Part shown: positions 5,690 through 36,470 of the stretch, in pieces | Layout: each line of letters opens with the position of its first letter | Numbering within the stretch: the stretch's first letter is position 1 | NCBI GenBank assembly: GCA_015039365.1 | Contig: WION01000208.1 | Span: forward strand, 1 to 64,000 | DNA length: 64,000 bases | DNA from: Amanita rubescens | Taxonomy: Eukaryota; Basidiomycota; Agaricomycetes; Agaricales; Amanitaceae | Direction: 5' to 3' | Made by a program: the position numbers and the translations under genes | Notes under the pieces: model-generated | What the model saw: only the letters and a program-made list of their open reading frames with translations | What the model was told of the DNA's origin: nothing | Database searches by the model: none

Positions 5690-6120
5690 CTAATGACATG
5701 CGCCCGGACCCTAGGGCTAAGGGGGATCTCCTAGACACCCAGGGATAAGGGTACAACCTACGTTTCTCAGGGCTGGCATGGCAACCCTGACCCCCACGGA
5801 GTTTTACTTGCCCTCCGTGACGTGATTGGGGTATTCATGCACGATATAACATCATAAGCCCATTAGAGGCTTTATAATACAATATGGCTCGTAGATAGCT
5901 ATTCTAGTATAAAGGACGTGCTGACATCCCATTTGGGGTGGTACACGCAGTCTATTGAGGATGCGCCCTTAGGGACTCCTCTAGTCGGAATGTTCTATAG
6001 GAACATTCTAAGTTTAGGCTCTGTGGTGATCCCACAATCCTACCTAGATAGCTTCATATTGTTTACCGGTCGTGCTTACATAGCTGTCTGGGGGGTTTAT
6101 GGACCAGAAGCTATTTCTAT
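5690..6120 (+). ncRNA. Structured RNA leader of Copia-1
   Basis: This non-coding leader aligns with 36020-36470 of Copia-2. Helices with paired changes between the copies are CAGGG/CCCTG (5768-5772, 5785-5789), CACGGAG/CTCCGTG (5795-5801, 5813-5819), GAATGTTC/GAACATTC (5988-5995, 6001-6008), TGTGG/CCACA (6022-6026, 6032-6036) and ATAGCT/AGCTAT (6080-6085, 6109-6114). The loop CTGGCATGGCAA is identical in both. I could not match it to group I or II introns, hammerhead or HDV-type ribozymes. A packaging signal or internal ribosome entry site is possible. Confidence 0.65.
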
Positions 6121-6380
6121 TCCTGGAACAAACTGTTCTCCCCCGTTCAAGGGGATCCAGGGGAGAAATGCCGTTTTGCGCGCTCCCAGTTCCAGGACCA
6201 TATGCATGTCATCTCTTACAGGTAGCACATTCACACACACGGGTACACGTCCAAGGTGGTGGCGTCCTAGCATGTCCATGCTTGGAGCAGCTCATAAGCT
6301 GCACGAATGGGTTGTTGTCGTTTTCGTAATGACACCTCATTAATTGTTCCAATTTTAGATATAAATCTTCGCTCCAGCCT

Positions 6381-6944
6381 ATGAGCCGTCGAGCTAGAAG
6401 ATATAATAGATTAGCAGAAGACCTAAATAGGCTAAACAACCTATTTCCAAGTTCATCTTCCGACAGTGAACTTGAATCGCTGACTGCAAACTTTGCAAGC
6501 AGTTCAGCTCGCATTACTACCCGGCCCGTTAACCGGATAGTACCGACATACCCATCTGCCTCATCATCCGAGGACGAATTAGATCGTGATCCAAACGATT
6601 ATTACGTCCCGCGAGCAGATACTCCACTTCCTGTATATTTACCAGGAACAGCTCATCATTCAGCAGGTGTCCATACCTCGCTGATAAATCGTCAGTACAG
6701 ACTTGAAACTGACACGTTTCGATCCGGTTTCACATTAACCGACGAAATACGGTTCCGAAGATCTCTAATTGAAGATCGAGGACCCGAATATAGCGAGATA
6801 GAACCATTCTCGCAACACAGCTCAAGTTCATTCAGCTCATTAGCTGAACGAAACCAAATCATCACACAACAAAGGTTCCGAAGAACCTTTCTACAACTCT
6901 TTCTTGCCGCCTTCCTCGCATCACTCTCAATCTTCGTTATCTAA
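6381..6944 (+). CDS. Upstream ORF of Copia-1 with C-terminal transmembrane segment
   Basis: A 187-residue frame between the leader and gag. It is Ser- and Arg-rich, with acidic stretches, and ends in a hydrophobic tail (LQLFLAAFLASLSIFVI) fitting a C-terminal membrane anchor. I see no signal peptide. Its stop lies 6 nt before the Gag-Pol ATG, so coupled reinitiation is likely. Copia-2 has a counterpart at the same place sharing the motif TPLPVY and a similar hydrophobic end. An acceptor-like AATTTTAG ends at 6358, just upstream. I know no named family for it. It could be membrane targeting, an env-like remnant or a regulator. Coding status rests on conservation between two elements. Confidence 0.6.
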   Translation: MSRRARRYNRLAEDLNRLNNLFPSSSSDSELESLTANFASSSARITTRPVNRIVPTYPSASSSEDELDRDPNDYYVPRADTPLPVYLPGTAHHSAGVHTSLINRQYRLETDTFRSGFTLTDEIRFRRSLIEDRGPEYSEIEPFSQHSSSSFSSLAERNQIITQQRFRRTFLQLFLAAFLASLSIFVI

Positions 6945-6950
6945 AGAAAG

Positions 6951-9900
6951 ATGTCCGAAGATTCAGCATCACTCTCCACTGTCCCCTTACTTAAGGGAGA
7001 CAATTACCGCTTGTGGGCTCGCAAAATGACGGCCTATTTACAAGTAAAAGGAATCTACAAATACATGAGAGATTCCTTTATCCAACCTCTAGATCTAAAC
7101 GCCACTGAGCAGGCAACACTTGAAGCTCATAACTTCGATGCTGTATTGCCTGCAGAAGCCGGTGAAGCTCCTCTGCCGGCCCCAATACCGGCAAATATCC
7201 AAGCTCTACTAGATCAGAGAGACACATATTTAGAGTGGCTCTCTGATAATGAGAAAGCCCTGGGTTCAATTATGCTCCGTTTGAGCGATTCTATCGCGGA
7301 GATATATGATACAGGTGCTCATCTCAATGCAAGGGTCCTTTGGGTCGCCTTGCGACAGAGATACGGAGATACCGGCCGAACCGGTACCTTCAACGAATTC
7401 CAGGCTGCACTGGATTGGAAGCTTGATGAAAGAAGGGACCCTGAACAGTCCCTTAATGAAATTATCGCCAAATTTGAGCGATTAACAGGACAGGGTTTCT
7501 CGCTACCCAAAGAACAAAAAGCGATGATAATTGTCCGCGGTGTTCCGCATCGTTGGGACAATTTTGTAGGAGCCGTTTTGGCAACTGCACCGGCGGCTGG
7601 CCTAACAGTCCAGCACGTTGCAATTCAGATTAGGGAAGAATGGAGAAGGCGACACTCAAGTGTCGCACATACGACCGCACAAATGGCGCGGGGTGACCTG
7701 CAACAAAGAATTGGTGGACAGGCACCCTGGCAAGGTCGTGGGCGAGGACGTGGACGAGGCCGCGGAGGATTCCGTGGCCGTGGACGAGGTCGTGGTGGTT
7801 TTCAACCATACACACCACAAAACCAGCAACCAGTAGTGGGAGCTGGTAACGCTCCAAGGTTACCGGAGCAACAGCAGCAGTGGCAGGGTCAAATGACCAA
7901 TCAAACACGTGGCCGAAACTGGCAACGTAATAGACAACTTCGCCAAACCGCGAAGGCCAATCGAGCGGCAGCACGAGCTGACGCTCATCAAACAACCTCA
8001 GGCATGACCTATACTGGGCAAAACCAAACTCAGTATACTGCTGCACCGGCCATACTTGGCCACCATTCCATTGTACCATTTGTACAAGGATCGTCCACTG
8101 GGAGAATAGAAGAAGTTACTCCCATGCAAGAAGAACCCCTTATAGAAGGGGCATATGATGATCAGCCGAATGATAACTTCACGGCTTTCGACGATTATGA
8201 TATGAAGAATTATGATGATTCTGCATATGATGATTATTATAATGACGAGTGGGTAAAATCTTATTTTAGTACAGATTGGGCTAACTCTTATTCAGTGGAC
8301 GTATGTAAAACAATCTCAGATTCTGTAATTGTATATAACATGGAATGTAATAAAAATTCATGTAAATCTAAAAACGTCCCAATGAGAGTTAGCCCTATAA
8401 GTCCAAACTATAAAAATAAGATTCACATTGCCTATCCAATGCATACAACGGGAAATCAACATCAGCACATAATATGTGCTGGTAGAACGGACAATTGCAA
8501 ATGTCCTTCCTGTTGTACAGAACGGACTGGAGAAACACTATGGATGTGTGACTCCGGTGCATCTGAGCATTTTACCTTTAATCTGAATGATTTTTCAGAT
8601 TATAAACCTTTTGATAAAGTGAAACTGGTAAAAACAGCAGATGGCACATCCGATCTAATTGGACAAGGCACTGTTATTTTTATTCATAAATTATCTAATG
8701 GAACAAGCCACCTTGTGAAACTGTACCCCGTGTTATACATGCCGCGTCTTAACATACGACTTGTTTCGAATGGCATGTTGTGTAAGCAAGGGTTACTGGC
8801 GTCACAAGACGATCAACGGATCACCTTTTCCTATAAAGATGGTAAAAAGGAAATATATCTTGAAGCAAGTTATCGCAATCAAGATACATTAACTTTATGC
8901 ACAGGACGTATTATTCATAAAAACGTCCACAAAGTGCCACCATTCTTTGAAAGAGAATCTGTCAATACATATACACACATTGATAAGGCTCCACCTGTTG
9001 AAACTTACACAGTAAATGAAAGTGTATCAACGTACGATATATGGCATAAACGTCTAGGTCACCCTGGTAAAGATGTGTTCCAACATCTTAAAGGACACGT
9101 AAAAGGGTTTGAAAAAGGCGATCTTCCCAAACCATCCCCAAATCTTCGATGTGAAGGATGCTTAAAAGGAAAAATGAAGGCAAAAACTTACAAAGAATCC
9201 AAAAAGCGGGCATCACGTCCGCTTGAAATGATCCACATGGACTTAAAAGAGTTTCCAACTCAGTCTTATCACAAATACAAGTATATACTTGTTGTGGTCG
9301 ATGATTATTCATCGTATGTATGGATCGGATTCCTTAAACACAAGTCAGATACAACTGAAGTGTTCCAGCGTTGGTTCACGAAAGTTTCTGCACTTAACAA
9401 ACGAATACTCTACCTCCGTTCCGATCGAGGGGGGGAATTCGTAAATAAAGCCTTTAAAGATTTCCTTGACAAAAATGGCATTCAACACCAAACATTGGCA
9501 CCTCATATACATCAGCAAAATGGACGAGCTGAACGAATGATTCAGACTTTAAATGATAAGTCTGAAGCTATGCGGCTCGATGCATGTATACCGAGATCTT
9601 GGTGGGAATTTTCAATCGAAACAGCTGTACACGTATACAATAGAACCCCAATTGTGCGTGGCAACTGGAAAACGCCTTGGGAACTTTTATATAGTTCCCT
9701 TCCTGACGTTCAATACTTTAAAGTATTCGGATGTGAAGCTTGGGTCTTTATCCCAGTTGAAAAACGTTCTGATAAACTATCTCCAAAATCAGAACTTATG
9801 ACCTTTGTCGGGTATGAACTAGGATCAAAAGCATATAAATTTATGGATTCCAATAACGCGCTAGTCATATCCGCCCAAGCCACATTCTTTGAAGACAGAT

Positions 9901-12900
9901 TTCCTCGCAAAGGAAAAAGTGATATTATTATTACTAAAGATCTTGCACCAATCCTTCTCGATAATCGAGACACTAATAATGGTATTCCATCCCCTTCCCC
10001 TGTTAGGGGAAGACAATTTGGTCGCAGGCGCACACAATCTCCTCTACCAGCTGACTCTGTAGAGGGAGGAGATCCTGAAAGCGACTCAAGCTCCAGCTCC
10101 GGTCACTCGGGCGATAAACCGGCATCAGTGAAACGAGAATCTTTATCACCCCTATCAGATGGCCTTAAAACTCCGTCTTGGGGATTAAAATCTCGTAGTC
10201 CAACACCGGATGAAGCTGATAAACCGGATAGTCCTGATATCAGAAAAGGTTCCACCATGGATGATCTTAGAAGGAGATTCCAAGAAACCATGAGGAACAT
10301 TGACGATGAACTAGAGGACCTTGAAGCAGGAGAAAGAACTCGCCTGCTGGAACAAAACAGTGGACTTCGTGACAGGCACACGAATATAGATATTTGTAGA
10401 CGCAATGCGGATGAAATCATGAAAAGATTTGTCCCTGACAGAAGTCCACCACGTACGAATACTAGAGAACAAGTTTTAGATATTAGAAAAAGACTTGCAG
10501 AAAGATTCGCACCAGATAGGAATCTTGAACGAACTGATAAAGATCGTAAATCAATCTCTGAATTTAAAAAGGAGATTGATGAACAAATTCCAATGCCAGA
10601 TTTAACTTTTAATAAAGTTAGAATGGAATTTGGCAAACGATCAACCGTTCAAAAACCTATAAATCCAGCAGATTATATCCCTGAAACAATTAGACCATCA
10701 TCCAAAGCCATGGGAAAACGCAGAGAAAGATCCAAATCTTTAGATAGATCTCATAGACCTCGTAGCAAACAGAGGCTAAATGAACCCACTCCAGTGGCAC
10801 CCCCACCGGCAGTAGTTCCCCGAAGATCTAACCGTGTTCCCAAGCCAATTATACGTAAAGACAATGCGTATGGTGAAAAGAAAGCAGTTGAAATAGAAAA
10901 AGAAATTCTCAGACAAAGAGATCTGATCAAATATCAGATTGACAATTATGAGAATGACTTTGGTGGTCGAATCCCAAATAAGGATGCGGCTGCACGCTTC
11001 AATCCAACTGCTAAAACACCACCCTCAAGATCTATGGATATAGATCCAAAGGCGACGATGGCTAGGATGATCAAAGAGTGTGGAAATGACTTCATGCATT
11101 TCTTACTCGCGAATATGATACCAAGAGAAGAAATTCGAACGTATCAATATAGGGATATATATAAGATCAAAGGTGAAAATATTGATCTATATAAGCAGTG
11201 GCGAACTGCTATGGAAGACGAGTTCAAATCTCTTCAAAATAGAGATATATGGGAATTAATGGAATTACCAAAAGGGCGTAACCCAATAAAGTGTCGTTGG
11301 GTTTATGATATTAAGTCGGATGGCCGTAAAAAGGCACGACTTGTCGCCAAAGGCTTTAGCCAACGCCTGGGATTGGATTATGATGAAACATTCTCGCCGG
11401 TAGCGAGATATGAAACCATTAGACTTCTTCTGGCAACAAGTGCTTTAGAAAATTGGGATATTGAAGCACTTGACGTTAAAACTGCTTTCCTCTATGGCGA
11501 TTTAGACGAGGAAATATATATGCAACAACCAGAAGGTTTCATCATTAAAGGACAAGAATCTAAAGTATATAAACTTAAGAAAGCTATTTATGGCTTAAAA
11601 CAAGCATCGTACGCTTGGAATAAACAAGCAGACAAATCCTTGAAGTCCCTAGGATTTAAACGATGCTTAGCCGACTCTGGCATATATGTCAGAACCACAG
11701 ATAAAGATATTACCATATGTGTAATATATGTGGACGATATACTTTTCATAGGAGACAAAACCGAAACAATTTCATATATCAAAAAGGAGTTTATGAAAAT
11801 GTGGGAATGTCGAGACCTAGGAAAAGTCAAAGAATACTTGGGCATCAGAATCAATTACGACCGAGCGATTGGTACGCTTGTAATAGATCAAGCTGCCTAT
11901 GCAAAGACAGTCGTTGAACGCTTTGGCTTGTTAAATTGCAAGCCGGTGTCAACTCCTTTACCTGCAGGATATGTACCTGCTAAAAACACCTCTGAAGCAT
12001 CCTCCGAAGATAGATCCTATTATCAACAAATAATTGGATCGTTATTGTATCTCGCCTTAGGAACTAGGCCTGATATTGCTTATGCTGTTATCTTAATGTC
12101 GCAATTTTCAGTTAATCCATCTTACGACCACATCCAAAGGGCGCTTTATATAGTAAAATATATAGCGCACACCCTTGACACACGAATCACCTATTCCAGA
12201 AATGGGAAAGGCTTCGTTGCTTATGCAGACGCAGATTGGGCGTCTGACAGAGAGACTAGAGTCTCGGTTACAGGCTATGCCTTAACTTTGGCAGGGGGTG
12301 CAGTTTGTTGGGTTTCTCGAAAACAGAAAACAGTTGCGTTGTCATCAACGGAAGCTGAATATATGGCAATGTCCGATGCCTCACGTCAAATTATGTGGGT
12401 ACTAAACCTATACCAAGAATTAGGTTTCCCCTTGGGCGGCATTGACCTTCTTTGCGATAATCAGGGTGCGATATTTCTGGCATCAAACCCTGCACAACAG
12501 CACAAATCAAAACACATTTCCATTCGCTATCATTACATTAGGGAACGTGTTGAACAAAAAGAGATCAATCTTTATTACGTTCCCACCAATCAACAAATAG
12601 CGGACTTAATGACTAAGAACCTGAATAGAGAGAAAATTCAGTTCTTTATAAATGAATTAGGAATCACTGTTAATGTTACTCCATATCCCACTATCAAAAT
12701 GCATAGTGCAAGTCACTGGATACACCTTTCAGCCGAAGGGTTAAATGGAGTTGAAGCAACATTCATGTATACGAACAAGCGACAAAATTTCATTCGTGAT
12801 ATGCTTGATCCGAAAGTACCAAAGGATACGTTCATGAATAGAAAAGAAGATCTTCTACCAAAACCAGTTAGAGATCGTATTATGAAGATATACGAACCTA

Positions 12901-13046
12901 TAAGGCAGTCAAAGATCAAAAGATCCTTTAAACGAGAAGACATCAATATGTTGGACTCGTGGAATCTTTTAGAAACATTAATGGATGAAAACAAATTCCT
13001 AGTAGAATTCATTAAGAAGAAATGGCGGATAAATATTCTAGGATAA
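6951..13046 (+). CDS. Copia-1 Gag-Pol polyprotein
   Basis: A single 2031-residue frame. The N-terminal Gag starts with a UBN2/DUF4219-like motif (LKGDNYRLWARKMTAYL). An RG-rich box near residues 261-285 stands where a zinc knuckle is usual; I see no CCHC. Protease has DSGA with D534. The integrase zinc region (HKRLGHPG, CEGCLKGK) is near 695-745, with catalytic D764, D825 and E861 (DD35E). A long charged linker follows. Reverse transcriptase has D1508 and YVDD at 1593-1596. RNase H (DADWASD, STEAEY) is near 1757-1800. About 125 residues continue past the usual DLMTKNL end, a basic tail of unknown role. No stop or frameshift is present. Confidence 0.93.
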   Translation: MSEDSASLSTVPLLKGDNYRLWARKMTAYLQVKGIYKYMRDSFIQPLDLNATEQATLEAHNFDAVLPAEAGEAPLPAPIPANIQALLDQRDTYLEWLSDNEKALGSIMLRLSDSIAEIYDTGAHLNARVLWVALRQRYGDTGRTGTFNEFQAALDWKLDERRDPEQSLNEIIAKFERLTGQGFSLPKEQKAMIIVRGVPHRWDNFVGAVLATAPAAGLTVQHVAIQIREEWRRRHSSVAHTTAQMARGDLQQRIGGQAPWQGRGRGRGRGRGGFRGRGRGRGGFQPYTPQNQQPVVGAGNAPRLPEQQQQWQGQMTNQTRGRNWQRNRQLRQTAKANRAAARADAHQTTSGMTYTGQNQTQYTAAPAILGHHSIVPFVQGSSTGRIEEVTPMQEEPLIEGAYDDQPNDNFTAFDDYDMKNYDDSAYDDYYNDEWVKSYFSTDWANSYSVDVCKTISDSVIVYNMECNKNSCKSKNVPMRVSPISPNYKNKIHIAYPMHTTGNQHQHIICAGRTDNCKCPSCCTERTGETLWMCDSGASEHFTFNLNDFSDYKPFDKVKLVKTADGTSDLIGQGTVIFIHKLSNGTSHLVKLYPVLYMPRLNIRLVSNGMLCKQGLLASQDDQRITFSYKDGKKEIYLEASYRNQDTLTLCTGRIIHKNVHKVPPFFERESVNTYTHIDKAPPVETYTVNESVSTYDIWHKRLGHPGKDVFQHLKGHVKGFEKGDLPKPSPNLRCEGCLKGKMKAKTYKESKKRASRPLEMIHMDLKEFPTQSYHKYKYILVVVDDYSSYVWIGFLKHKSDTTEVFQRWFTKVSALNKRILYLRSDRGGEFVNKAFKDFLDKNGIQHQTLAPHIHQQNGRAERMIQTLNDKSEAMRLDACIPRSWWEFSIETAVHVYNRTPIVRGNWKTPWELLYSSLPDVQYFKVFGCEAWVFIPVEKRSDKLSPKSELMTFVGYELGSKAYKFMDSNNALVISAQATFFEDRFPRKGKSDIIITKDLAPILLDNRDTNNGIPSPSPVRGRQFGRRRTQSPLPADSVEGGDPESDSSSSSGHSGDKPASVKRESLSPLSDGLKTPSWGLKSRSPTPDEADKPDSPDIRKGSTMDDLRRRFQETMRNIDDELEDLEAGERTRLLEQNSGLRDRHTNIDICRRNADEIMKRFVPDRSPPRTNTREQVLDIRKRLAERFAPDRNLERTDKDRKSISEFKKEIDEQIPMPDLTFNKVRMEFGKRSTVQKPINPADYIPETIRPSSKAMGKRRERSKSLDRSHRPRSKQRLNEPTPVAPPPAVVPRRSNRVPKPIIRKDNAYGEKKAVEIEKEILRQRDLIKYQIDNYENDFGGRIPNKDAAARFNPTAKTPPSRSMDIDPKATMARMIKECGNDFMHFLLANMIPREEIRTYQYRDIYKIKGENIDLYKQWRTAMEDEFKSLQNRDIWELMELPKGRNPIKCRWVYDIKSDGRKKARLVAKGFSQRLGLDYDETFSPVARYETIRLLLATSALENWDIEALDVKTAFLYGDLDEEIYMQQPEGFIIKGQESKVYKLKKAIYGLKQASYAWNKQADKSLKSLGFKRCLADSGIYVRTTDKDITICVIYVDDILFIGDKTETISYIKKEFMKMWECRDLGKVKEYLGIRINYDRAIGTLVIDQAAYAKTVVERFGLLNCKPVSTPLPAGYVPAKNTSEASSEDRSYYQQIIGSLLYLALGTRPDIAYAVILMSQFSVNPSYDHIQRALYIVKYIAHTLDTRITYSRNGKGFVAYADADWASDRETRVSVTGYALTLAGGAVCWVSRKQKTVALSSTEAEYMAMSDASRQIMWVLNLYQELGFPLGGIDLLCDNQGAIFLASNPAQQHKSKHISIRYHYIRERVEQKEINLYYVPTNQQIADLMTKNLNREKIQFFINELGITVNVTPYPTIKMHSASHWIHLSAEGLNGVEATFMYTNKRQNFIRDMLDPKVPKDTFMNRKEDLLPKPVRDRIMKIYEPIRQSKIKRSFKREDINMLDSWNLLETLMDENKFLVEFIKKKWRINILG

Positions 13047-13050
13047 CTTA

Positions 13051-13061
13051 GCGAGGGGGTG
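13051..13061 (+). promoter_or_regulatory. Polypurine tract of Copia-1
   Basis: GCGAGGGGGTG lies directly before the 3' LTR. It is the expected RNase H-resistant primer for plus-strand DNA synthesis. Confidence 0.8.
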
Positions 13062-13465
13062 TGACGAAGTTATCTTATCTAATCTAAGATAACAATGAGA
13101 TCTTATCTTATCTGCTTACTAAGCAGATTAGGATATATATAGATAGAACCTTGTAGAAGGTTCTAGTACGCTTGCGTCATCCTTACTGTGGATGGCGCCA
13201 TATGACACCATAGCTGCGCATGACATCAGCGCAGCTCCATATTTCCATATATGAGTATGACATATGTAGTTACATATATTTACCTATGTTGTTACCTATT
13301 AGGACACAGACAGTATATAAACCTGCTATGTACCGTAGAATAGGAACAAGCTCTCTTAACCTCCTACCACCATCTTCTCAGCTGAGTGGTCAGCTACTGT
13401 ACACATCGGGTAAGCTATCGCTTTAACTCCTCGACGCTGCGCTACTGGGCGTTTCCCTTTCGTCA
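13062..13465 (+). repeat. 3' LTR of Copia-1
   Basis: A 404-bp LTR preceded by the polypurine tract at 13051-13061 and followed by the target duplication ACGAC. Confidence 0.95.
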
Positions 13466-15369
13466 ACGACAAGTCCAAAGATACAATGACCCAGATTTCT
13501 GAAGCCAGTTCACATGATGCAGAAAGTAATGCATCGTATGAAAGAATCAAGGCTGCCTCGAAGATCAATAAGGAAGTAAGAGATCAATCGCATTTTTTGT
13601 AATCATGAATGCTAATAACCACTCAGCCTAGACGTAAACATAATCGCAGAGGTCATGATGACCGTACGCAAGACATTCGTGCATGTTTTGAAGCGGAGAA
13701 GCGCCTGGTGAATGGTGTCGAAAGGGATGGGCACATATGTCAATTATGTCGGAAGATTGGAATCTCTGAAGAGAATAGCTTTTTCTTGGGTTCAAATTCC
13801 TCGCTAAGAACCCATATCCGCAGGTATGTGACATCGATAGTCGTTTATGGATGGCCTTTGACAAATGTATTGTGCAGGTCTTGGAGTACTCATGGTGAAG
13901 GCTATCTCAATGCTTGTAAAGCTGAAAATATTGAACCAAACCCACGAGCAGTGCACCAAACCGATGACAGCGATGATGATGGAGTTGCGCAAACTAAGCT
14001 AGATGGATTTGTTCAGCGCACGCCAAAATGGACCCGGGATGGATTAAAGGAGTATATAATGAATTGGGTGATCGCGATGGATCAGGTGCTTCGATTCAAG
14101 CCCTATACGTGCATGCGCATCAGACTAACATCATTTGAGGCCTTTGAAGGAGTTGATCACCCAACCTTTCGAGCTATGCTGAAGTATCAGCAGCCATCAA
14201 CACTGGAGTCAGACATTCCTCACCGAACGCTTGTGTCCGAGGACGTCATGTACAAGGCTGACCTTGTCCAATTCCGTATTGGCCAGCACTTCAAGGTAAG
14301 TCAGCCGGGCTTCCTTCTAAATCTTTGGATAACGCTAATGCTCATTCTAAGAACATCACAAGTGAAATCTCGCTCACCTTTGACTTATGGACCTCAAGGC
14401 CTTATGATCCATACCTGGGCATCACGGCCCATTATATTGACACACCAGCAGATCGCCATAGCGAATGGGAACTCAAAACTGTGACCCTCGGTTATACCGT
14501 TGTAGAAGGCAACCACAGCGGGGCGAATATTGCTGCTCACATTATACAGGTGCTTGATAAATACGGTATCCGAGAAAAGGTAGACATATACAGCGTTATC
14601 TTAGGTCCTACAATGCTAATCTACATGTCTAAACACTAGATTGGTTGGTGCACGGCGGACAATGCCTCAGTTAACAACAAAACAGTCAAGTGCCTTAGTG
14701 AATACAAGGGTGTCAATACCAGTAAACACCCTTGGGATGCTCGTCAGCGCCGAGGCCGGTATGTATGAACATCAGCTAGGATCATGTGAATCTAATATTT
14801 TACGTGCATCAGCTGTGTGGAACACACCATCCATCTGGCGGCGAAAGCATTCATTGATGCGCTACATCCTAAATGGGAGAAAAGAGTGCACCGCACCGCC
14901 TTGGGCAATGCTGACGAAGATGACGAAGAAGGGGGCTACGGTGAAGATGGTTGGGTAGTGGATTATGTGGATGCTATACCTTGCCCAGCAGAAAAGGAAC
15001 CAGTTGCGGTACCCACTTCCGGCGACCAAATGGAACTGGAGCCTGAAGAGTTTGAACCTGGCGATACGCTCGGTAAACTCCTTGCGCTCATAACCCAGGT
15101 TAGCCTCAGAAATCATTATTCAACTCATAATAACCATATACATTGCAGATTCGCGCATCGCCTCAAGCGAAGGCATATTTTAAGGTCGTCTGCAAGGATA
15201 GTGCTGCAGAGTCCGGTCAAAGACCGGAGTAGGACCGATAAAAGACCGGACCACAGCTCGGTCTTTTTCGGTCCCGTCTTGGTCCCGGTCCCGGTCTTTC
15301 GTTTTCTCAAGATCCTGAGGACTGGCCGGGACCGGTCAGGACCGGTCCCGACTGATCTTATCGGCTCTC

Positions 15370-15940: not shown

Positions 15941-16392
15941 TGTTACAAACTCGTTAATCTCAACCTAAGTTGCAACGACAACTCTAGTCACGATTACAAG
16001 TCTTAAGTCAAACGTTAAGATTATAAGTTCAATACTAAGTCAGGACGTTGACTTAGGATCTGAGGACGATTGTGGTAGATGAGTTAAGAGTAAGGTTATA
16101 TTGCCAGACGACAATAAACAGCTAAGTCGAACTTAGGGTTCGACTCTAGAATACATGAAGTACTTATACTAGCAAGTACAAAGAGACGTACTAATTAATG
16201 AATAAAGGTAAGTACGAATGTAGGTATAAGGACGGCGTCATATGTGGAATAAGGAATGGTATAAGTAAGTAAACGAGCTTGTCCATACGAATCGAGCATA
16301 AGGGGTGAGACGGATAAGGTATGCATAAAGAAAATGAACATGTCCGACGTGTCATGTAAGCATAATGCGGGAGTCCGTACCGTGTTGTAACA
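15941..16392 (-). repeat. 3' LTR of Gypsy element
   Basis: A 452-bp LTR matching 26092-26549 apart from a 6-bp deletion and scattered changes. On the minus strand it is preceded by a purine-rich tract. Confidence 0.93.
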
Positions 16393-16432
16393 CTAGCTCT
16401 CCCCTACGTTGTTGACCGCAACAACAAACCAT

Positions 16433-20700: not shown

Positions 20701-23700
20701 TTAGAGTTTCCTTCGTCTTTTATATTCTAGAAGGAGGTCTTCCATATGCGTCAAGTTATTTTCTGGTTCCCATGTGTTTTCGCTGGTGTCATAGCCTTTC
20801 CACTTTACAAGAAATTGTAATTTCCCTCTAAACTTGCGATGTGCAAGCAGTGCTTCTACTTCGTATTCTTGTTCTCCTTCGATTAGATCGGGAGGGGGCC
20901 TCGTTTCCATTGTTCCATGAAAGGAAGTTTCTTTGAACGGCGTTAGTAAGGCAGCATGGAATACGTTATGAATTTTCCATTGTCTTGGCAGCGTGAGACG
21001 ATATGTCACTGGTCCTAAGACTTCTTTAATGGAAAAGGGACCTTCTCGTTTAGGTGCGAGCTTTCTGCTCTGATAAGGAATCTTCAGGTTCCTAGACTCT
21101 AACCATACTTTGTCATTGACTTTGAACGGTTTGGTCTTTCTCGTTGTTCTCTCCATCATCTTAGCTCGTGCTAGATCATGTGCGGCGAGTGCTTCTTCTC
21201 GTGCGCGGAACAGAGAGTTGATGCGGTTATCGGTGGTTGGTGTGTTTGTCTTATTTGAGACAAGGGGAAGTGCAACCGGGGATGTTCCATACATCAATTG
21301 AAAGGGCGATTGTTTCAATGCTTCATGAGTGCGTGAATTATGCGCGAATTGTGCTATTGGTATCATCTTGTTCCAAGTATCTGGTTCATAGGCACAGAAT
21401 ATTCGGAGATAAGCTTCTAATTCGGCGTTATATCGTTCCGTTTGTCCATCAGTCTGTGGATGGAAGGCGGTACTCATTTTGTGTTTGATTTTTAATGAGT
21501 CCATTATGCCGTTAAAGACATGTGATGCGAACTGTGGTCCTCGATCGGAGATCATGATGTCGGGTAGACCGAAGTTTTTGAATACATTCCGAATGTAGAG
21601 GTCGGCGGTTTCGTCGGCGGTGATAGTTTTATTACAAGGCATGAGAATTACTCCCTTTGTAAGTCCTTGATCGACCACGATAAAGATAGAATCAAAACCG
21701 TCACTTATGGGTAAGTCGGTTATGAAATCCATAGTTATTTGTTGGAAGGGTCGGTGTGCGTGAGACTTGATTGGCATCAGAGGTGCGGCGGTAGGGTGAG
21801 TATTTGATTTCATTTGTTGACATGCCGTGCATCCATCAATAAATTGTTTAACCATTTTAGACATTAATGGCCACCAGTAATATTCCTTTAATAAGGCTAG
21901 TGTTTTGAAGAAACCGGGGTGTCCGCTTGTTGGTGATTCATGAAAATCTCTAATAATATCTCGGCGAAGATCGGTGTCAGGAGGGATAAAAGATTTCCCT
22001 TTGTATAGGATTAATTTGTCGTCAAGGGTCCAATCAGAAAGGGCTGTGCGTAAAGGCGGTGTTCCTTTTTCTTTTAGACATTTCTTGATTGATTGAGCGA
22101 ATTCATCTTTGATAGTTATTTCTATTGCTCTGTCACGGAGATCTTCGGCGATTGTGCGAACAAAGAGTTCTTTTGGGAGCATCGTTATTAACTCTTCTGG
22201 TTCGTCTTTTGTCATATGATCGGGTCGGCGGGATAGGGCGTCCGCTATTATTAATTTTGCTCCAGGGACGTGGGTTAATTTAATATTAAATCGAGACAAG
22301 TCGTTCCACCATCGTGCTTGGCGGTTCGTAAGATGTTGTGGTTCTCGATAGTAGAGTAGATTCTTGTGGTCGCAGTGAATAATGACAGGGTGTTCTGCTC
22401 CTTCAAGTAGGTATCTCCATTCGTTGTAAAGAGCGTAGTAAATGGCAAATAACTCTCGGTCGTAGATTTGCCATCGTGTTTCAGTCGGTGTTAAAGCGTG
22501 GGATAGGTATCCGCATGGGTGTAAGTCGCCATTGTCATCTTTTTGCATTAGAACTGCTCCGATAGCGTGGTCTGATGCGTCCGTTTGTAGAATAAAGGGT
22601 TTGTTAACATCGGGCATCATTAAGACAGGTGCGGATGTGAAGCGTTCTTTTAATAGATCAAATGCGACTTGGCATTCTGCGGTCCATGTCCATAATTTGT
22701 TTTTCTTCGTTAGGTCGTGCAGGGGTCGTGCAAGGTGGGCGAATCCGAAAATAAACCTTCGATAGTAGTTTCCGAATCCTAAAAATGATCTAACTTGTTT
22801 AACGGTAGAAGGGGTTGGCCAGTCCCTGATTCCGGCAAGTTTGATCGGGTCCATTTTTATTGTATTTTTGGATATGACGGTGCCTAGAAAATCAACTTCT
22901 TTGGCAGCGAATTTACACTTTTCAAGCTTGAGGTAAAGATCGTGTTTCTGTAATCGTTCAAGTACTTGTTTTGTTCGAATCTCGAGTTCTTCTTTAGTGC
23001 GCGCGTGTATTAGCATGTCATCCATGTAGATGACGAGCCATCCTTTTTCTGTAAAATCCCTGAAATAATCGTCCATCATAGCTTGAAACGTTGCTGGTGA
23101 ATTTCGTAATCCAAAGAACATGACGTTAGGTTCAAATAAACCTCGATTGGTGATAAAGGCGGCTTTCCATCTATCAGATTCCTTGATTTGAACGTTATTA
23201 TATCCCCATCAGATATCCAATTTCGTAAAGTATTCCGAATCTTTGAGTTTGATCATAAGATCGGAGATAAGAGGTAGTGGATATGCATTTGGTTTAGTAT
23301 ATTCGTTCAAATATCGATAGTCTTGGCAGGGTCGTAATTTTTGTGCTTCTTTCTTTTCTACAAAGAAGAAAGGTGATGCCTGCGGTGATTTCGACGGTCT
23401 GATGTAGCCTTTTTCGACGTGTTCTTTAATCCATTCATCCAGTGTGTTCTGCTGTTTCGGAGATAAGGGATAGATTTTTCCTCTTTTTGGTATGAAATCA
23501 TCGCGAAGTTCTATCTGGTGATCCCAAGATCGGCTTTCTGGGAATCGTTCACTTGCTTTTTTCTCGAATACGTCTTTCCATGCCGAGTATTCAGGAGGGA
23601 GCGTGTAAACCTCCTCTGTTTGATGGTATTTGTGTTCCATTTGTTGAGCTGGTGTATATCGTGCGATAGTTACTTGGTCATATTCGTCTTCTGACCAGCT

Positions 23701-26060: not shown

Positions 26061-26076
26061 TGTTCAGGCTTATTGA

Positions 26077-26091: not shown

Positions 26092-26549
26092 TGTTACGAA
26101 CTCGTTAATCTCAACCTAAGTTGCAACGACAACTCTAGTCACGATTACAAGTCTTAAGTCAAACGTTAAGATTATAAGTTCAATACTAAGTCAGGACGTT
26201 GACTTAGGATCTGAGGACGATTGTGGTAGATGAGTTAAGAGTAAGGTTATATTGCCAGACGACAATAAACTAAAACAGCTAAGTCGAACTTAGGGTTCGA
26301 CTCTAGAATACATGAAGTACTTATACTAGCAAGTACAAAGAGACGTACTAATTAATGAATAAAGGTAAGTACGAATGTAGGTATAAGGACGGCGTCATAT
26401 GTGGAATAAGGAATGGTATAAGTAAGTAAACGAGCTTGTCCATACGAATCGAGCATAAGGGGTGAGACGGATAAGGTATGCATAAAGAAAATGAACATGT
26501 CCGACGTGTCATGTAAGCATAATGCGGGAGTCCGTACCGTGTTGTAACA
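26092..26549 (-). repeat. 5' LTR of Gypsy element
   Basis: A 458-bp LTR with TG/CA ends. On the minus strand, TATAAG begins at 26325. About 30 nt downstream lies CCCTAAGTTCGACTTAGC, the likely RNA start region. Confidence 0.93.
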
Positions 26550-27269
26550 CCCCAGCTCTCTCGCACGTGCACCCCAGCTCTTTTGCACATGCACCCCAGC
26601 GCTCTCTCTCGCACCTGGGCCCCAGCTCTCTCTCACACCCCAACTCTCTCACACATCCGATTCCCAGCTCTCTCGCATGCGCACCCAGCTCTCTCCATAG
26701 CTCTCTCTCTTGTGCACACCCCAGCTCTCTCGCAGGACCCCATAGCTCTCTTATGTACCCCGCTCTCTGTCAAGACTGCTCAGGACCGGTCAGGACCAGT
26801 CCAGACCGGTCTGAGACCGCTTTCAGTCCGAGACCGGTCAGGACTGGTCCAGGACCGATACAGGACTGCAGTCCTGTCCTGCTGCAGTCTCGGTCCTGTC
26901 CTCTGGCTTTTGGAGGATTCAGTCCTCGGTCCTGTCCTCGGTCTTGCCCTCCGGGGCCAAAAGACAGGACAGGACAGGACTCTGCAGCACTATGCAAGGA
27001 AGAAGGCATCAAGCCTTTGCAACTGATTAAGTTTGTACGCAAGCGTTGGGGTTCAATGTACGATCTGGTTCAACGTGCAATTATAAATAAAGCGGTGCAT
27101 AGTTTTGATCATGGGCGCTCATTCATCCAGCTTACATCACCTCACAGGCAATTAACAAATTCTGTGTTGTTGCCGACGCATCTGGTAAGGTACCAAAGCT
27201 CAAGAACAAGTTCTATGAAGATTACCGTATTGCAAACCAAGAATGGGGTCTGTTGCGATGTTTCAGGAT

Positions 27270-28138: not shown

Positions 28139-28815
28139 TGTAAGGACGGTGATCCTAATTGGGACGGAGCCCGGGAACTAAGCCGCGGACAGGGAAGGAC
28201 GGAGTATAACGGAGTCCGGGACGTAGTGGGGAAAGGCTAGGCTTCAGTGTGCAAGCTGCGCCGTGCTAACATACGTCTTGCCTAAACTTCTGGAGAACGC
28301 TCTGGAGTCCGGGATGGAGTCCGGGACCGGAGTCCGAAGGGCGAGCGGTCTGGATGAGGTCTTAGACAATGAAAGACAGGGAGTCAATACAAGTTGGGGC
28401 ACAATCCAAGTCGATATTCGGACTACTGTATGAGTACAAGTGAGGCCTTATATACGTAGTCCGACAAGGGGAGTTATGGCCGTGTTCTGATGAGAACAGG
28501 AAACTATGGAGATATGGAACAGGAAGTGGAGTAGAGCATATGGTATGAAGGGATAATGATACCAGTGATACCCGAGATGAAACAAGAGGTGAAACAAGTA
28601 TGGAAAATACGTAGAAAGGAACTTAGCGAATATGCACGGAGTTGTGACGGAGTTGTGACGGAGTCCGTCACGGAGTTTGTCACGGAGTTTTCGGAGTTTT
28701 GGCATAGGCTTGATATGAGATGCGACATGGGTGGAAAGTGGTCATGGGTATAGTCAGGAGTCCATCGGGGTCCGAGGTCACGGAGTTTGGGTGGAGTCTG
28801 GAACGGGATATGACA
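28139..28815. mobile_element. Solo LTR, 677 bp
   Basis: The sequence starts TGTAAGGAC and ends ATATGACA (TG...CA), flanked by the 5-bp duplication GAAAT (28134-28138 and 28816-28820). Removing it with one duplicate rejoins the Copia-4 integrase frame (YYILF-QDEYT). It contains tandem GTGACGGAGT units near 28643-28690. No partner LTR of this family is in the window. It was probably left by recombination between the two LTRs of a full element. Confidence 0.88.
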
Positions 28816-28820
28816 GAAAT

Positions 28821-30532
28821 AAGATGTAATACTTCTTCCCTTTCAGAGATGCAGTCTCCGTAGGTCCCCAAAGGTCCGAAACGACCTTATCGCCATATCG
28901 TTTTGCCCGATCACTGGTACTCAGTTTCGGAAATGGTCGGCGTGGTGCTTTTCCCTCAATACATCCGGGACAGGTTTCGGCTTTAGAACCTGTGTCAAGG
29001 TCTATTCCAGTGATGGTTCCTTCCTTGACCATACGACGTAAGTCATCGTTATTGATATGTCCCATTTTTCGATGTAATTCATTGATAGACATCTTTCCAG
29101 ATACGGCGAGAGCTAAATCCGATCCGGGTGAGCCATTTGTGGCAATGGATACCCGATATAGGCCGTTGACTAAGGGAATTTGCCCAATAGTGCGACGTTC
29201 GGGTTTGGGGGTGTGAACGGTACAGATTCCGTCTTCCATATTGACAGAGAATCCTTTCCGGTCTATGGTTCCAACAGAGATAAGCGTGAAGGCGAAATCG
29301 GGTGAGTAATAGACGTCCTTCAATGTTACTCTTGTCGGCTGATTGTTTTCTCCCATCGGGAGGATTATCTTTAGATCACCGCGGCCGGTGGCTTGTAGGG
29401 TAACGCCATTAGCCGCTTTTATATCTTTGGGTTCGATCGTGACAAAATTGATTAGATCGGAGCGGTTGGGAGTGAAGTGACGGGTAGCGCCGCAGTCGAT
29501 GATTGCGCTGCAGCTGGCCGGATACGTGGCAAGGGCTTCGAGAGGTTCCGTGGGGCAGCAGGTGACGGCGAGGGATACGTCCTTGTTGTCAGTGTCGTCC
29601 GTGGACGCTACATTCGCTTTCCCAGTATGTTTCCTCTCCTTTTTGCCGTGATCCTTCTGATCATCCTTCTTTTTATCCCAGGGTGCCTGTCCCTCTTTTC
29701 CGCCGCCTTTCATGAAGCAATCCTCCCGTTTGTGCCCGTCGCGTTTGCAATTGGTGCATTTTATGTTTTTCTTCTCAGCACGCTTCTTCATGTGAGCAGC
29801 AACCATCGCCGCGTTTTCGGCGGCTTTATCAGCTTCTTTGTGAACCTTTTGTTCGTCGGCCTCTTCGTGGATGGCCACGATTATTTGATCACTGGTGAGT
29901 ATTTTTTGATTTACTCGTGCTGTGGCGCTGAGAGTTTGTAGGAGCGAGCGGTAGCTGGCAGGGAGAGATTTTCGGATCATGGCGGCGAATGACTGGTCTG
30001 ACATCGGAGCGCCCATCCCTTCGAGTTGTTCCTTCAACTCGGACATGGTGGCGAGGTGTGTGCGTACATCGTCATCCTCGAGGCAGATCTTATTCTGCAT
30101 TTTCGCCAGAAGGCTGACTTGGATTAGATCACCCTTTTTCTCCATGATCGACACAAGTTTGGACCAGACTTTGGCAGCAGAGGCTTCATTTTTGACTTGG
30201 AGGAAGAGCGATTGACCGATTGTCTCGTAGATCACCTCCCGGACCGATGCCTCCTTTTGTTCAAATTGGTCAACCTCTTTCTCGATCTCATCGATCTGGG
30301 TTGAGGTGAGTTCCATCGTGCTTCCTTTCCTGTAAACCTTATCGGATTTGGTTTCGATCTCGGTTGGTTTCCGCGCAGTCCCCGACACATGACGCTTTAG
30401 CCCTTTATGGGTGAGGGTATTCATTATCCTCTCCCGGTATGTGATCCAGTTGGATCCGTCGTCCTTGAGCTTCGGAAGCTTGAGGAGTTTAATGGCATCT
30501 GTAGTTGACATGGTGGTAGACTCGGGGCCCAT
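28821..30532 (-). pseudogene. Copia-4 Gag, protease and integrase N-terminus
   Basis: The frame starts at the ATG inside the primer-binding site (MGPESTTMS). Gag has a UBN2-like body and a CCHC knuckle CTNCKRDGHKREDC. Protease has IIDCGATRHFTP, the DCGA form seen in some Copia families. The integrase zinc region follows (ELHRKMGHIN, CPGCIEGKAPRRPF) and the first catalytic Asp is in VVSDLWGP. The frame is cut at KKYYILF by the solo LTR and resumes at 28138. About 570 residues are intact before the break. The polyprotein cannot be completed here. Confidence 0.88.
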
Positions 30533-30536
30533 AACC

Positions 30537-32825: not shown

Positions 32826-33128
32826 TGTTGACGTGTGAAAACCTGAAGGTCTATCTGTAAAGATAGATATGTCTCAGTCCTTCAGATACGAAGACTTGTT
32901 CTATTACCTGTAAAGATAGATATGTCTAAACTAATGTTTAGTAGGTAATATATAACATAAAAGAGTGGTATCATACCTCAGTCCTTCAGATACGAAGACT
33001 GAGGTACACGAAGAAAATACGTGTCCAAAAGAGCGTATTATGTAAGTAGGAACAAATAGTGACAAATAATAGAATAGCGGCTATGCTCGACTGAAAAGAT
33101 ATAAGTAACGAACGTACGAATTTCAACA
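32826..33128 (-). repeat. 3' LTR of Copia-3
   Basis: A 303-bp LTR with inverted TGTTGA/TCAACA ends. On the minus strand it is preceded by a GAGTGGGCG polypurine tract. It contains repeated CTGTAAAGATAGATATGTCT and TCCTTCAGATACGAAGACT motifs. Confidence 0.82.
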
Positions 33129-33144
33129 CGCCCACTCAGGCGAG

Positions 33145-35475
33145 CTAGGCAGTTCTAAGTCCCATCTGCTCCGTAAAACGCTTGTGTTTTTCGCGTGATA
33201 GCGGTTTTGTCAGGACATCGGCAACTTGATCATTTGTCGGGCAATACTCGACTTTGATGATTCCTCTAGCTTGAGTGTCTCGAACGAAATGGTATTTGAT
33301 ATCGATATGCTTTGTCCGGTCATGTGCAACTGGATTTTGAATGAGTTTGATGGCAGATTGATTGTCCACGTAGAGCGTAATCGGTTTTTTGAGTGGATGA
33401 CCAATCTCGGAAAGGAAAGTGTGAATCCAGGTTGCTTCTTGAGCGGCGCGGGCAGCGGCGATATATTCGGCTTCGGTAGAGGAAAGAGAGACGGTTGCTT
33501 GCTTTTTGGATGACCAGCTGATAGCGGCACCGGAGAGGATAGCGGTATATCCGGAAACGGACTTGCGGTCGTTAGGATCGCCTGCCCAGTCTGCGTCGCA
33601 GTAGATTACTGGTCCTTCAATAGCGGACTTGCCGTCGTAGAGAATATAGGTGTCGGAGGCGCCTCGAAGGTAGCGGAATACTCGTTTGACAGCAGTGTGA
33701 TGTCGTTTGCCAGGTGCATGGTTATGGCGTGAAAGTACGCCCACATCATGCGCAACGTCGAATCTAGTACCAATAGATCCGTACATGAGTGAACCGATGA
33801 GTCGTTGATACTCAGTAACGTTCACTTCAGCGGCGTCGAGTTTCTCGAGCTTGAGGTTTGCCTCCATTGGGGTAGCTGCTGGTTTGCAGTCGGCCATTCC
33901 ATGTCTTTCGAGGATATCCTCGATGTATTGCGATTGGGATAGCCTAATGGTTCGCTTTGGTCGGTCGCGTGTGACTTCCATGTTTAGAATCCAGTGAACC
34001 TCGCCGAGATCCGTCATGTCGAAGCGTGAACTGAGGTCCTTCTTCGTTTGCGTCACGAGATCTGGTGAGTCGGAAATGATAAGGTTGTCATCGACGTAGA
34101 CCGCGATTATGATGTGGTGGCCATTTGCGTTCTTGTAGAAAACGCAGTGGTCAGCTTGAATTCGAGTGAAACCGAGAGCGCCAAGTTCACTTGAGAATTT
34201 TCGGTACCATTCTCGACTTGCCTGTTTCAGACCGTAAAGAGCCTTTTTGAGTCGCCAGACAGTTCCGGGAGCAGCGTTGTAGCCAGGTGGGACTCGGATA
34301 TAGATCTCCTCTTCGAGTTCCCCATTCAGAAAAGCAGACTTGACATCCATTTGGTGAATTTCCCAGTCAAAACGGGCAGAGAGGGCGAGAAGTAGTCGTA
34401 TTGAGTTGAATTTCGTCACTGGTGCGAAAGTTTCATTATAGTCGATACCTTCGACCTGCGAGAAACCTTGGGCGACGAGACGGGCCTTGTAGCGCTCGAT
34501 TTGACCATCAGGTCCCATCTTCATCCTAAAGACCCACTTAGATCCGACGATTTTGCGATCGTGTGGTCGTGGAACCTCCTCAAACACTTCAAACTTCTTA
34601 AGAGTCTCGAGCTCTTCATTACATGCCTTCTTCCATTGCTCACAATCCTCACGGGACATGGCGTCGTGAAAGGTGAGTGGGTCGCCCAGGGCGGCCGTTC
34701 TGGCATTCTCGTCGGTCACATGTGTGACTTGCGTCACATCTCCTCCCTCGTTATCTCCTCGTCCTCCTCCTGCCACACTCGCTCCTCCACTCAATTGATG
34801 GGCGGTCCGGTTTCCATATGACGACTTGAAGTATCTTTCATCATCATCGCGCACCGGCGCTCTTCGGATCCTTGTCGAACGACGAGGTTCATCAATTTCA
34901 GCAGTGGGAGGTAGATAAGGCTGTACAGGCGGTAGATTGGAGTTTCTAAGGTGAGTTGAACTGGTTCCTGGGGTTTTCGAGGTCGCTGAATCCGACGGTG
35001 AAGTCGGCGTGGCGCGAAATTCGATTACGGATCCGCCAGGACGAGTTGTAGCGTTTTTAGGTGGTGAAACACCATCAGCAGTGCTCCCTGCTGTCCCATA
35101 GCTGTTAGATGACGAATCTGAGTCATCTCCGTCGTCGTCGTCGTCGCTTTTGACGTCCAGAAGCCCTTCAAGATCCACAGATGACTCTGAATCAGATTCT
35201 GAGTCATTTACGTCCTCAGCAGGTGAGTTTCTTGTTTCTGCTTCATCTTGGGTAACTTCAGTCTCAATCCTGACTCTGGTAGGCTCTACAAGTTCGCCTT
35301 CATCGAAATGGACGTCCCGGGATTCCACAATGCGCCCACTCGAACGATGAACGAGTAAATAGGCCTTTTTGTGTTCGGAATAACCCAGGTGAATGCATTC
35401 CATCGTTTTCTTGTCCAGTTTCTGACGTTTTTCTTTCGGAACATGAGCATAGGCCTTGCAGCCGAAGATTCGGAG
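33145..35475 (-). pseudogene. Copia-3 Pol: integrase C-terminus, reverse transcriptase, RNase H
   Basis: About 775 residues with no stop. The integrase C-terminal motif FGCKAYAHVPKEKRQKLD leads, followed by a Ser/Asp-rich linker. Reverse transcriptase follows (KWVFRMKMGPDGQIERYKA, QMDVKSAFLNG, YVDDNLIISD), then RNase H (YCDADWAGD, SSTEAEYIAA) and the usual end DVLTKPLSREKH. All reverse transcriptase and RNase H acidic residues are visible. The upstream part was separated by the Copia-2 insertion with duplication CGGAG (35471-35475); the second copy is not seen. Confidence 0.9.
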
Positions 35476-35882
35476 TGTTAAATATAGAATTATATTTATA
35501 GAATGATTAACTACTGATTGACTACAATCAATGTTACTCATATCGCTCGCGTCATCCTTTATGTATGACATAGAGATGACATCATAATGACTTCATTATG
35601 ATATCATGGTGACATCATGATAGACTCATGATTACATCTTATGGTGTGCTTAGCACGCCATATCTTCCCATCTATACTATACGCTTACACATATGTAGAC
35701 ACATATTTGTTCTCTCTTAGTATATAAACCTGTCCTGTATCGTAGAATAGGACAATCCATTCTCTTCCTCTTACTATCACTACTACGCCGAAGGGTAGTG
35801 CTAAGATCATATCGCAATAGGTAAGCTATTGCACCTGCTCATGCTGTGGACACGCTCTCGCGTAGACCTGTCTTCTTCGTCA
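35476..35882 (+). repeat. 5' LTR of Copia-2
   Basis: A 407-bp LTR at the junction with Copia-3 (CGGAG precedes). It has a TATA-like AGTATATAAACC near 35719, as in Copia-1, and a splice-donor-like ATAG|GTAAGC at 35821. Confidence 0.85.
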
Positions 35883-36019
35883 GGTTATGGGCCCCGCCGT
35901 CGATATTGCCAGGACCCACATCGCCGCTCGCTTGCTCGTCATCCGACATGATGTCCCACTGGTATAGTATCGCAGCGACCCTGATATGGTCTTATCATCT
36001 TGATATCACTAATCCTTGA

Positions 36020-36470
36020 TATGGCATATGCGCTAATGACATGCGCCCGGACCCTAGGGCTTTAGGGGGATCTCCTAGACACCCAGGGATAAGGGTACTT
36101 CCTATGTTTCTCGACGCTGGCATGGCAACGTCGGCCCCCATGGTGTTTTCGCGCTTGCGCACCATGATGTGACTGGGGTATTATTGCACGCTATACCATA
36201 ATAAGCCCCTTAGAGGCTTTAGAATACAATATGGCTCGTATTTAGCAACTTCTAGTATAAAGGACGTGCTGACACCTCATTGTGGGTGGTACACGCAGTC
36301 TATTAAGGATGCGCCCTTAGGGACTCCTTTAGTCGGAATGATCGATAGGATCATTCTAAGTTTGGGCTCTATGGTAATCCCATAATCCCATTTAGAAGTT
36401 TCATATTGATTACCGGTCGTGCTTACATAACGGTCTGGGGGGCTTATGGACCAGACGTTATTTCTATTTT
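36020..36470 (+). ncRNA. Structured RNA leader of Copia-2
   Basis: Counterpart of 5690-6120. Helices are CGACG/CGTCG (36112-36116, 36129-36133), CATGGTG/CACCATG (36139-36145, 36160-36166), GAATGATC/GATCATTC (36336-36343, 36349-36356), TATGG/CCATA (36370-36374, 36380-36384) and ATAACG/CGTTAT (36427-36432, 36456-36461). Each differs from Copia-1 on both strands of the stem while loops and spacers stay similar. The strongly conserved ACATGCGCCCGGACCCTAGG stretch starts near 36032. Confidence 0.65.

Follow-up and report, generated by a model that had tools for sequence, protein, structure and literature searches.

A structured RNA conserved in the leaders of four Copia families of Amanita rubescens, a candidate identity element of the genomic RNA

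The window, as we call the whole stretch of 64,000 nucleotides of Amanita rubescens DNA analysed here (contig WION01000208.1), holds two Copia elements, e1 and e2, whose 5' leaders contain the two stretches that an earlier note had compared and described as a structured RNA. In both elements PF14223, PF00665 and PF07727 occur in this order, giving gag, integrase and a Copia-type reverse transcriptase (RT), and both are Ty1/Copia long terminal repeat (LTR) retrotransposons, with an LTR pair and a target duplication seen for e1 only. The 5' LTR of e2 starts at about 35480 (an estimate), and the window holds no second copy of it. Both leaders carry a tRNA primer-binding site (PBS), which in e1 we take to be that of a copia-type internal primer.

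5139-5143 and 13466-13470: target duplication ACGAC of e1, flanking both LTRs
5144..5547, plus strand: 5' LTR of e1; the LTR pair is 99.75% identical
5548..5561, plus strand: PBS of e1, GGTTATGGGCCCCG, complementary to part of initiator tRNA-Met
5689..6120, plus strand: conserved structured leader RNA of e1
6951..13046, plus strand: Copia gag-pol of e1
13062-13465, plus strand: 3' LTR of e1, partner of 5144..5547
35883..35896, plus strand: PBS of e2
36032..36468, plus strand: conserved structured leader RNA of e2
37338..42422, plus strand: Copia gag-pol frame of e2, ending prematurely

The RT region has 6707 protein relatives; among the 120 listed, the top identity is 69%, to a protein without a name, and the named ones come from Trametes (53%), Pleurotus (51%), Microbotryum (36%) and plants (32-41%). 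The e2 insertion breaks a Copia pol frame (33145-35571, minus strand), which runs into the e2 LTR, and directly after the early end of the e2 frame lie three tandem copies of a block at a spacing of ~160 nt (42583-43180).

The leaders of e1 and e2 share 87.9% identity, whereas U3 and R-U5 reach 56.5% and 59.6%, so that the LTRs have indeed diverged far more. The leader flanks are likewise less similar, with 55.5% from PBS to leader and 40.9% from leader end to the predicted splice acceptor, as are ORF1 (42.3%), the gag start (50.9%), integrase (62.0%) and RT (71.7%). Codon positions 1, 2 and 3 of RT are 79.5, 90.0 and 45.6% identical, which means that the leader has been kept better than first positions and nearly as well as second positions, while third positions are badly eroded. 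A 158-codon open frame of e1 (5867-6343) was considered as a coding explanation and rejected; it is closed over the same stretch in e2, and the leader is non-coding, as the earlier note had held.

All five stems in which both sides were said to have changed together are present. From e1 to e2, CAGGG/CCCTG (5768-5772/5785-5789) becomes CGACG/CGTCG around an identical 12-nt loop, CACGGAG/CTCCGTG (5795-5801/5813-5819) becomes CATGGTG/CACCATG, GAATGTTC/GAACATTC (5988-5995/6001-6008) becomes GAATGATC/GATCATTC, TGTGG/CCACA (6022-6026/6032-6036) becomes TATGG/CCATA, and ATAGCT/AGCTAT (6080-6085/6109-6114) becomes ATAACG/CGTTAT. Folded singly, the e1 and e2 leaders beat their shuffles only mildly (z -2.4 and -1.7; 1 of 100 and 5 of 100 shuffles equal them). 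Folding energy is unconvincing alone, and the case therefore rests on covariation.

Further copies were sought in the genome assembly (75.7 Mb, 786 contigs), and all copies of the RNA described here come from this one genome. Two DNA searches for leader copies matched at all 40 of the candidates scored in each, the best of 221 and of 223, and a seed with 30 fixed positions, taken from the leader's 5' part, occurs 147 times (78 + 69) against 0 for the reversed control. Sixty-five leader loci were fetched; a filter requiring a match of at least 400 nt removed two (L062 and L063), and the remaining 63 represent 59 places, four having been fetched twice. With these four counted twice, the exact PBS lies upstream in 61 of the 63 e1/e2-type loci and GGTAAG is found in U5 in 63 of 63. 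In the loci examined, the RNA travels with Copia leaders.

The exact PBS occurs at 264 places of the genome (2 in the reversed control). About 100 of these were among the matches listed, and seven PBS-bearing loci outside e1 and e2 were picked from them. A covariance model trained on 19 e1/e2 leaders only (R1) detects the RNA in four of the seven, namely in family X (L066 and L067; E 4.4e-18) and family Y (L068 and L069; E 2.5-3.3e-11). A second model confined to the 5' domain of the leader, also from e1/e2 only (R2), finds Y at E 8e-13 and X at E 5e-6. The other three loci (L070-L072) gave no R1 match, and R2 matches at chance level only. On the window, R1 recovers both e1 and e2, together with a single match at chance level (E 9.6). 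Where the matches to X and Y are longer (about 200-245 nt), identity to e1/e2 is 61-69%; in a 5' stretch of Y measuring 52-53 nt it is 81-87%. Searches with the X and Y leaders yielded, among the best 40 of 189 candidates scored, 40 X places at 98-100% and, among the best 40 of 64, 15 Y places at 88-100% and 25 weaker ones, 24 of them at X places. In IMG/VR neither the exact leader seed nor a relative of the Copia RT was found (0 matches each). The earlier note had named absence of the stems from other family members as what would speak against its proposal; the further copies and families searched did not bear such an absence out.

Covariation was measured on two sets. The e1/e2 set comprised 30 of the 56 distinct leaders fetched by then and 66 named pairs, of which 99.4% are paired and 16 double-changed, compared with 31-46% and 0-3 when the register is slid; from 15 e1/e2 leaders RNAalifold predicted 108 pairs, of which 17 are double-changed. 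The four-family set comprised 38 sequences (22 of the 56 distinct e1/e2 leaders, 9 of 14 distinct X leaders and all 7 Y leaders fetched), aligned by sequence only and counted by column over hairpins H3-H6. Here 36 pairs are 97.1% paired and 18 are double-changed, against 31.7-47.3% and 2-4 pairs in the slides, and double-changed cells number 234 against 86 in shuffles. The four-family structure was partly read from the same sequences, which biases the paired percentage in its favour; a count on the tree is more robust. With parsimony states on a FastTree tree, taken as unrooted and resolved in four ways, 17 double changes preserved pairing against 1-3 that did not, and single changes keep the pair in 15 cases and break it in 11-12. 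Site independence would predict ~4.5 double changes, whatever their kind, and with randomly chosen partners the mean was ~0.9 and the maximum 6 in 300. This count supersedes an earlier one that split the deepest branch at the root (7 kept against 1).

Not every measure is as strong. Double-changed pairs exceed shuffles weakly, with 18 against 15.8 in four families, where 22 of 500 shuffles reach the observed number, and 16 against 13.6 in e1/e2, where 3 of 500 do, and the number of further pair types runs the other way (28 against 35.3 in four families and 27 against 32.6 in e1/e2; 500 of 500 shuffles as high). Palindromes acting at the DNA level were set aside, since G-U cells exceed A-C cells by 52 to 19 and 41 to 7, favouring an RNA of the plus strand; by distinct pair positions the figures are 7 to 8 and 10 to 6, and this test is therefore mild. 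A long-range closing helix and 5'-end pairings proposed by RNAalifold are not claimed; they are near-invariant in e1/e2 and not clearly kept in X and Y. Together, compensatory changes exceed what chance and relatedness would give, and the leader is a structured RNA under selection, a proposal of the earlier note now strongly supported by compensatory changes in four Copia families, by an identity above that of RT and by adjoining stretches at 41-56%.

The RNA measures 430-520 nt in the four families and folds into about nine hairpins, of which the following were followed individually (e1 coordinates).

5768..5789, plus strand: H2, CAGGG/CCCTG, counted among the e1/e2 named pairs
5791..5831, plus strand: H3, base CCCC/GGGG, one-sided bulge ACGUGAUU (5820-5827) and CACGGAG/CUCCGUG
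5856..5872, plus strand: H4, AAGCC/GGCUU, double changes in 4 of 5 pairs, four families
5915..5952, plus strand: H5, GAC/GUC, UGC/GCA, internal loop UGA/GUACAC and CAUCC/GGGUG, double changes in 6 of 11 pairs
5957..5981, plus strand: H6, GAGGA/UCCUC with apex CCC-UUA-GGG, double changes in 2 of 5 stem pairs; the alignment displaces Y here
5988..6008, plus strand: H7, GAAUGUUC/GAACAUUC, e1 and e2 families only
6016..6041, plus strand: H8, AGG/CCU and UGUGG/CCACA, counted among the e1/e2 named pairs
6080..6114, plus strand: H9, AUAGCU-G-UCUGG/CCAGA-AGCUAU, with one bulged G

H2, H8 and H9 fall out of register in X and Y when aligned by sequence only (H2 and H9 fail by columns); they were therefore excluded from the four-family column count and checked by explicit arms. 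The arms of H2 read CAGGG/CCCUG in e1 and, in the same region, UUACC/GGUAA (or GGUGA) in X and CCGAAGU/ACUUCGG in Y; explicit-arm loop boundaries gave a stem length of 0 for H2 of e1/e2, which was counted through the named pairs. H8 takes the form GCUG(UAACC)CAGC in X and Y, and H7 is not at the corresponding place in these two families. The layout of H9 (outer helix, bulged G, inner helix) recurs in 37 of 38 sequences, that is 8/8 for e1, 14/14 for e2, 8/9 for X and 7/7 for Y; one e2 sequence has 5 of 6 outer pairs, and one of the nine X sequences did not fit. Among unpaired or apical motifs, the H5 internal loop (UGA and GUACAC at a fitting distance), the H6 apex and an unpaired UUCURGUAU are found in 38 of 38 sequences. 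The H3 bulge AYGUGAYUGG is found in 33 of 38 (28 of 38 under a stricter pattern requiring a preceding GTG), and the H5 loop CAUUGU, which e1 lacks, in 30. The invariant or nearly invariant unpaired motifs (UGA/GUACAC, the bulged G of H9, the H3 bulge) look like recognition sites. The H3-bulge motif also turned up in five stretches of IMG/VR and 15 of GTDB genomes; we regard these as chance, since none of the 20 has an R1 match at E<=1.

No RNA family in Rfam accounts for the fold. Rfam 15 (4227 covariance models) gave no match at the gathering threshold over the window and none at E<=10 over its two leaders. The X and Y loci L067 and L068 gave three matches, all of them far under the gathering threshold (E 0.17, 5.6 and 7), outside the RNA and on the opposite strand. 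As far as Rfam 15 goes, then, the earlier view that no described class has this fold holds, and no conserved Copia leader RNA is described in the titles and abstract openings listed by searches of open-licence literature.

The place of the RNA within the leader offers a clue to its function. Predicted splice sites, chosen by eye, enclose it and the PBS, and ORF1 follows.

5492..6358, plus strand: predicted leader intron of e1, from G/GTAAGC in U5 to TTTTAG, enclosing PBS and structured RNA
6381..6944, plus strand: ORF1 of e1, 187 aa, with a C-terminal hydrophobic segment; its only ATG is its start
35821..36784, plus strand: predicted leader intron of e2
36785..37336, plus strand: ORF1 of e2, 183 codons, all frames free of ATG, with a CUG in frame at 36794

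GTAAG[CT] lies in U5 of e1, e2, X and Y (shuffle probability 0.03-0.04 in each), and in all four families an AG after a pyrimidine-rich stretch precedes the coding region. Y also has a CTGAC, a good fungal branch site, whose A precedes the end of the AG by 15 nt. The predicted introns would thus measure 867-1524 nt and take in the PBS and the whole RNA in all four families. They contain 18 (e1), 22 (e2), 20 (X) and 38 (Y) ATGs, and no ATG occurs from the acceptor to the next start codon over 22 (e1), 553 (e2), 37 (X) and 23 nt (Y). Within the 96-156 nt before the donor, e2, X and Y are free of ATGs; e1 has one, 14 nt past the first base of a TATA box, which probably places it ahead of the transcript start.

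ORF1 evolves as a gene: pN/pS is 0.12 over 19 e1 copies and 0.21 over 24 e2 copies, with a few places entering these sets twice. An open frame of more than 150 codons is kept in 21 of 28 e1 and 26 of 35 e2 copies. Of these, 19 of the 21 from e1 hold a single ATG, and 20 of the 26 from e2 lack any over ~550 nt. The e2 frame opens directly at the predicted acceptor, the CUG in the context AAACUGG is its likely start, a C-terminal hydrophobic segment is found as in e1, and one nucleotide separates its stop from the gag ATG. This pattern suggests that ribosomes initiate weakly or at a non-AUG codon and reach gag by leaky scanning. Against Pfam, ORF1 of e1 gave nothing at E<=1, that of X nothing, and that of e2 one match below the cut-off (E 0.18); e1 ORF1 has one metagenome relative, of 138 aa.

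Our favoured reading, to which we commit about half of our belief, is that the leader RNA is a cis-acting identity element of the unspliced genomic RNA, serving packaging or dimerisation and perhaps export or splicing control. Its hairpins would act in cis on the full-length genomic RNA. Splicing from U5 to an acceptor close ahead of the first open frame would remove the PBS and the RNA together, leaving a short AUG-free 5' exon joined to ORF1 or Gag. Such an mRNA would be free of AUGs ahead of ORF1 or Gag and, having no PBS, would be no template for reverse transcription. Genomic RNA has to escape splicing, which would make the conserved RNA its exclusive label; the predicted donor and acceptor flank the RNA in four families and bear on the absence of the signal from spliced RNA, if splicing occurs as predicted. 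Most likely the element's own Gag, or else a host factor, would recognise the label, leading to dimerisation, packaging and priming of the unspliced RNA, while splicing might be held back or export aided. The earlier note had left packaging signal, internal ribosome entry site (IRES) and ribozyme side by side; a leader lying in a predicted intron with 18-38 AUGs, and with none between acceptor and start, speaks for a signal of the genomic RNA, packaging for instance, rather than for an IRES, and nothing found points to a ribozyme.

A broader form of this proposal is tentative, and we lean slightly against it. The RNA, of a class unknown to Rfam, would predate the split of at least four fungal Copia families and form a genome-identity domain inside a PBS-removing leader intron. 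Splicing alone would then sort pure mRNA, with neither PBS nor signal, from pure genome, and a non-AUG or weak start would let ribosomes read ORF1 and leak through an AUG-free frame to Gag.

Several observations weigh against the identity element. Conservation of 88% in primary sequence is high for a packaging signal; the 5' part of X and Y contains insertions, and the 5' domain of X is weakly conserved (R2 at E 5e-6); and the predicted intron depends on donors and acceptors chosen by eye. A search for a spliced retrocopy of the e2 junction returned none, although this result is uninformative, since absence is expected if spliced RNA is without a PBS. Finally, a Copia family in the same window (28778-30536, minus strand) has the same PBS, at 30523-30536 and overlapping the start of its gag frame (30532), and no leader RNA; not every Copia needs one, and it is a lineage trait.

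The fold might instead keep part of the RNA unspliced and export it without direct packaging by Gag, much as simple retroviruses have a constitutive transport element. With RNA and PBS both inside the predicted intron, retention and export of unspliced RNA would be obligatory for replication, and conserved internal loops in the hairpins would suit a host-protein site. The fold, however, contains neither predicted splice site and resembles no Rfam element, and we consider this account unlikely, though worth keeping in view. A translation element, an IRES or ribosome shunt carrying ribosomes past the AUG-rich full-length leader to ORF1 or Gag, would make sense of the 18-38 AUGs and of an e2 ORF1 without AUG, which recalls the non-AUG start and leaky scanning that accompany shunting in pararetroviruses (PMC5902531). 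If the intron is spliced, however, the AUG-free 5' exon needs no bypass. The fold, moreover, consists of many separate hairpins with no single long stem, and the spacer between RNA and first ORF, only 40.9% identical between e1 and e2, runs from about 240 nt (e1) to about 730 nt (Y), although not every IRES or shunt need be close to the start. We hold this to be improbable.

A self-cleaving or otherwise catalytic RNA would agree with the size, the many helices and the invariant unpaired motifs, but the lack of any Rfam match at E up to 10 leaves no known catalytic fold, and cleavage of the leader would part R/U5 and PBS from the coding region and harm the genome; we regard it as very improbable. 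We give least credence of all to conservation by recombination or gene conversion between families in place of selection. Copia families in one genome can swap leaders, and those of e1 and e2 are far closer than the rest of the elements. Exchange does not produce paired double changes, however, X and Y keep the helices at only 61-69% identity, and compensatory change across four families contradicts exchange as the whole cause, though it may still contribute to the e1-e2 identity.

Elsewhere in the window, direct repeats at 15941-16393 and 26092-26550 (99-100% identical) surround a chromodomain Gypsy element (20701-23121, minus strand), probably a young insertion. Three diverged repeats (54609-55305, 56432-57137 and 62960-63662) encode kinase-like sequence (IDFGLA read from the DNA), which we take to resemble casein kinase 1, and the direct-repeat pairs 47171-47836/49494-50148 and 509-808/2684-2983 lie 2.2-2.3 kb apart at 92-99% identity.

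Structured 5' signals in LTR elements are already known as a kind, and the best mapped cis-acting RNAs of LTR retrotransposons met in the literature search are those of yeast Ty1 and Ty3. What appears new here is the combination of no Rfam match, conservation far above the surroundings, presence in four families and a tie to a predicted PBS-containing intron. One genome with well over 100 copies of one fold in four families offers enough for a well-resolved secondary structure and for testing what an element RNA needs to be recognised as genome, with invariant loops as exact sites for mutation. If the intron is real, the element resolves the conflict between mRNA and genome by splicing out its own primer site.

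The retroviral packaging signal (psi) lies downstream of the major splice donor and only in unspliced RNA, and the retroviral PBS lies upstream of that donor, whereas here PBS and RNA are both inside the predicted intron. In the caulimovirid pregenomic leader of CaMV and RTBV, a long and structured leader combines splice donor, packaging signal and nearby PBS, and in RTBV translation of ORF I begins at a non-AUG codon, with ribosomes scanning leakily through ORFs that lack internal AUGs (PMC5902531). The AUG-free ORF1 of e2 just before gag fits that strategy, although those leaders form one large stem-loop and belong to plant viruses.

Two further comparisons come from within the Copia superfamily. 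In Ty1 (PMC4974528, PMC5454406), packaging and priming signals, together with translation initiation and a pseudoknot, fill the 5' 380 nt; as the 5' UTR (untranslated region) has only 53 nt, this domain reaches past the start of the coding sequence and takes in the PBS. Conservation of the domain was demonstrated for Ty1/Ty2 of Saccharomyces, and splicing of Ty1 has not been detected. Thus e1 and e2 share with Ty1 the superfamily, a structured 5' RNA and an initiator tRNA-Met primer, but their leader RNA lies downstream of the PBS, is non-coding, is common to diverged families and sits in a predicted intron. Barley BARE1/BARE2, also Copia, keep separate RNA pools for translation and replication and exclude spliced RNA from replication; in the excerpted account (PMC3735527) the BARE intron, unlike ours, has 104 nt and lies at the gag end, the pools differ by promoter, cap and tail, and no conserved fold of this kind is described. 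Because the matching region of Ty1 has packaging, dimerisation and priming functions and BARE has separate RNA pools, we prefer packaging or dimerisation as the function of the leader RNA.

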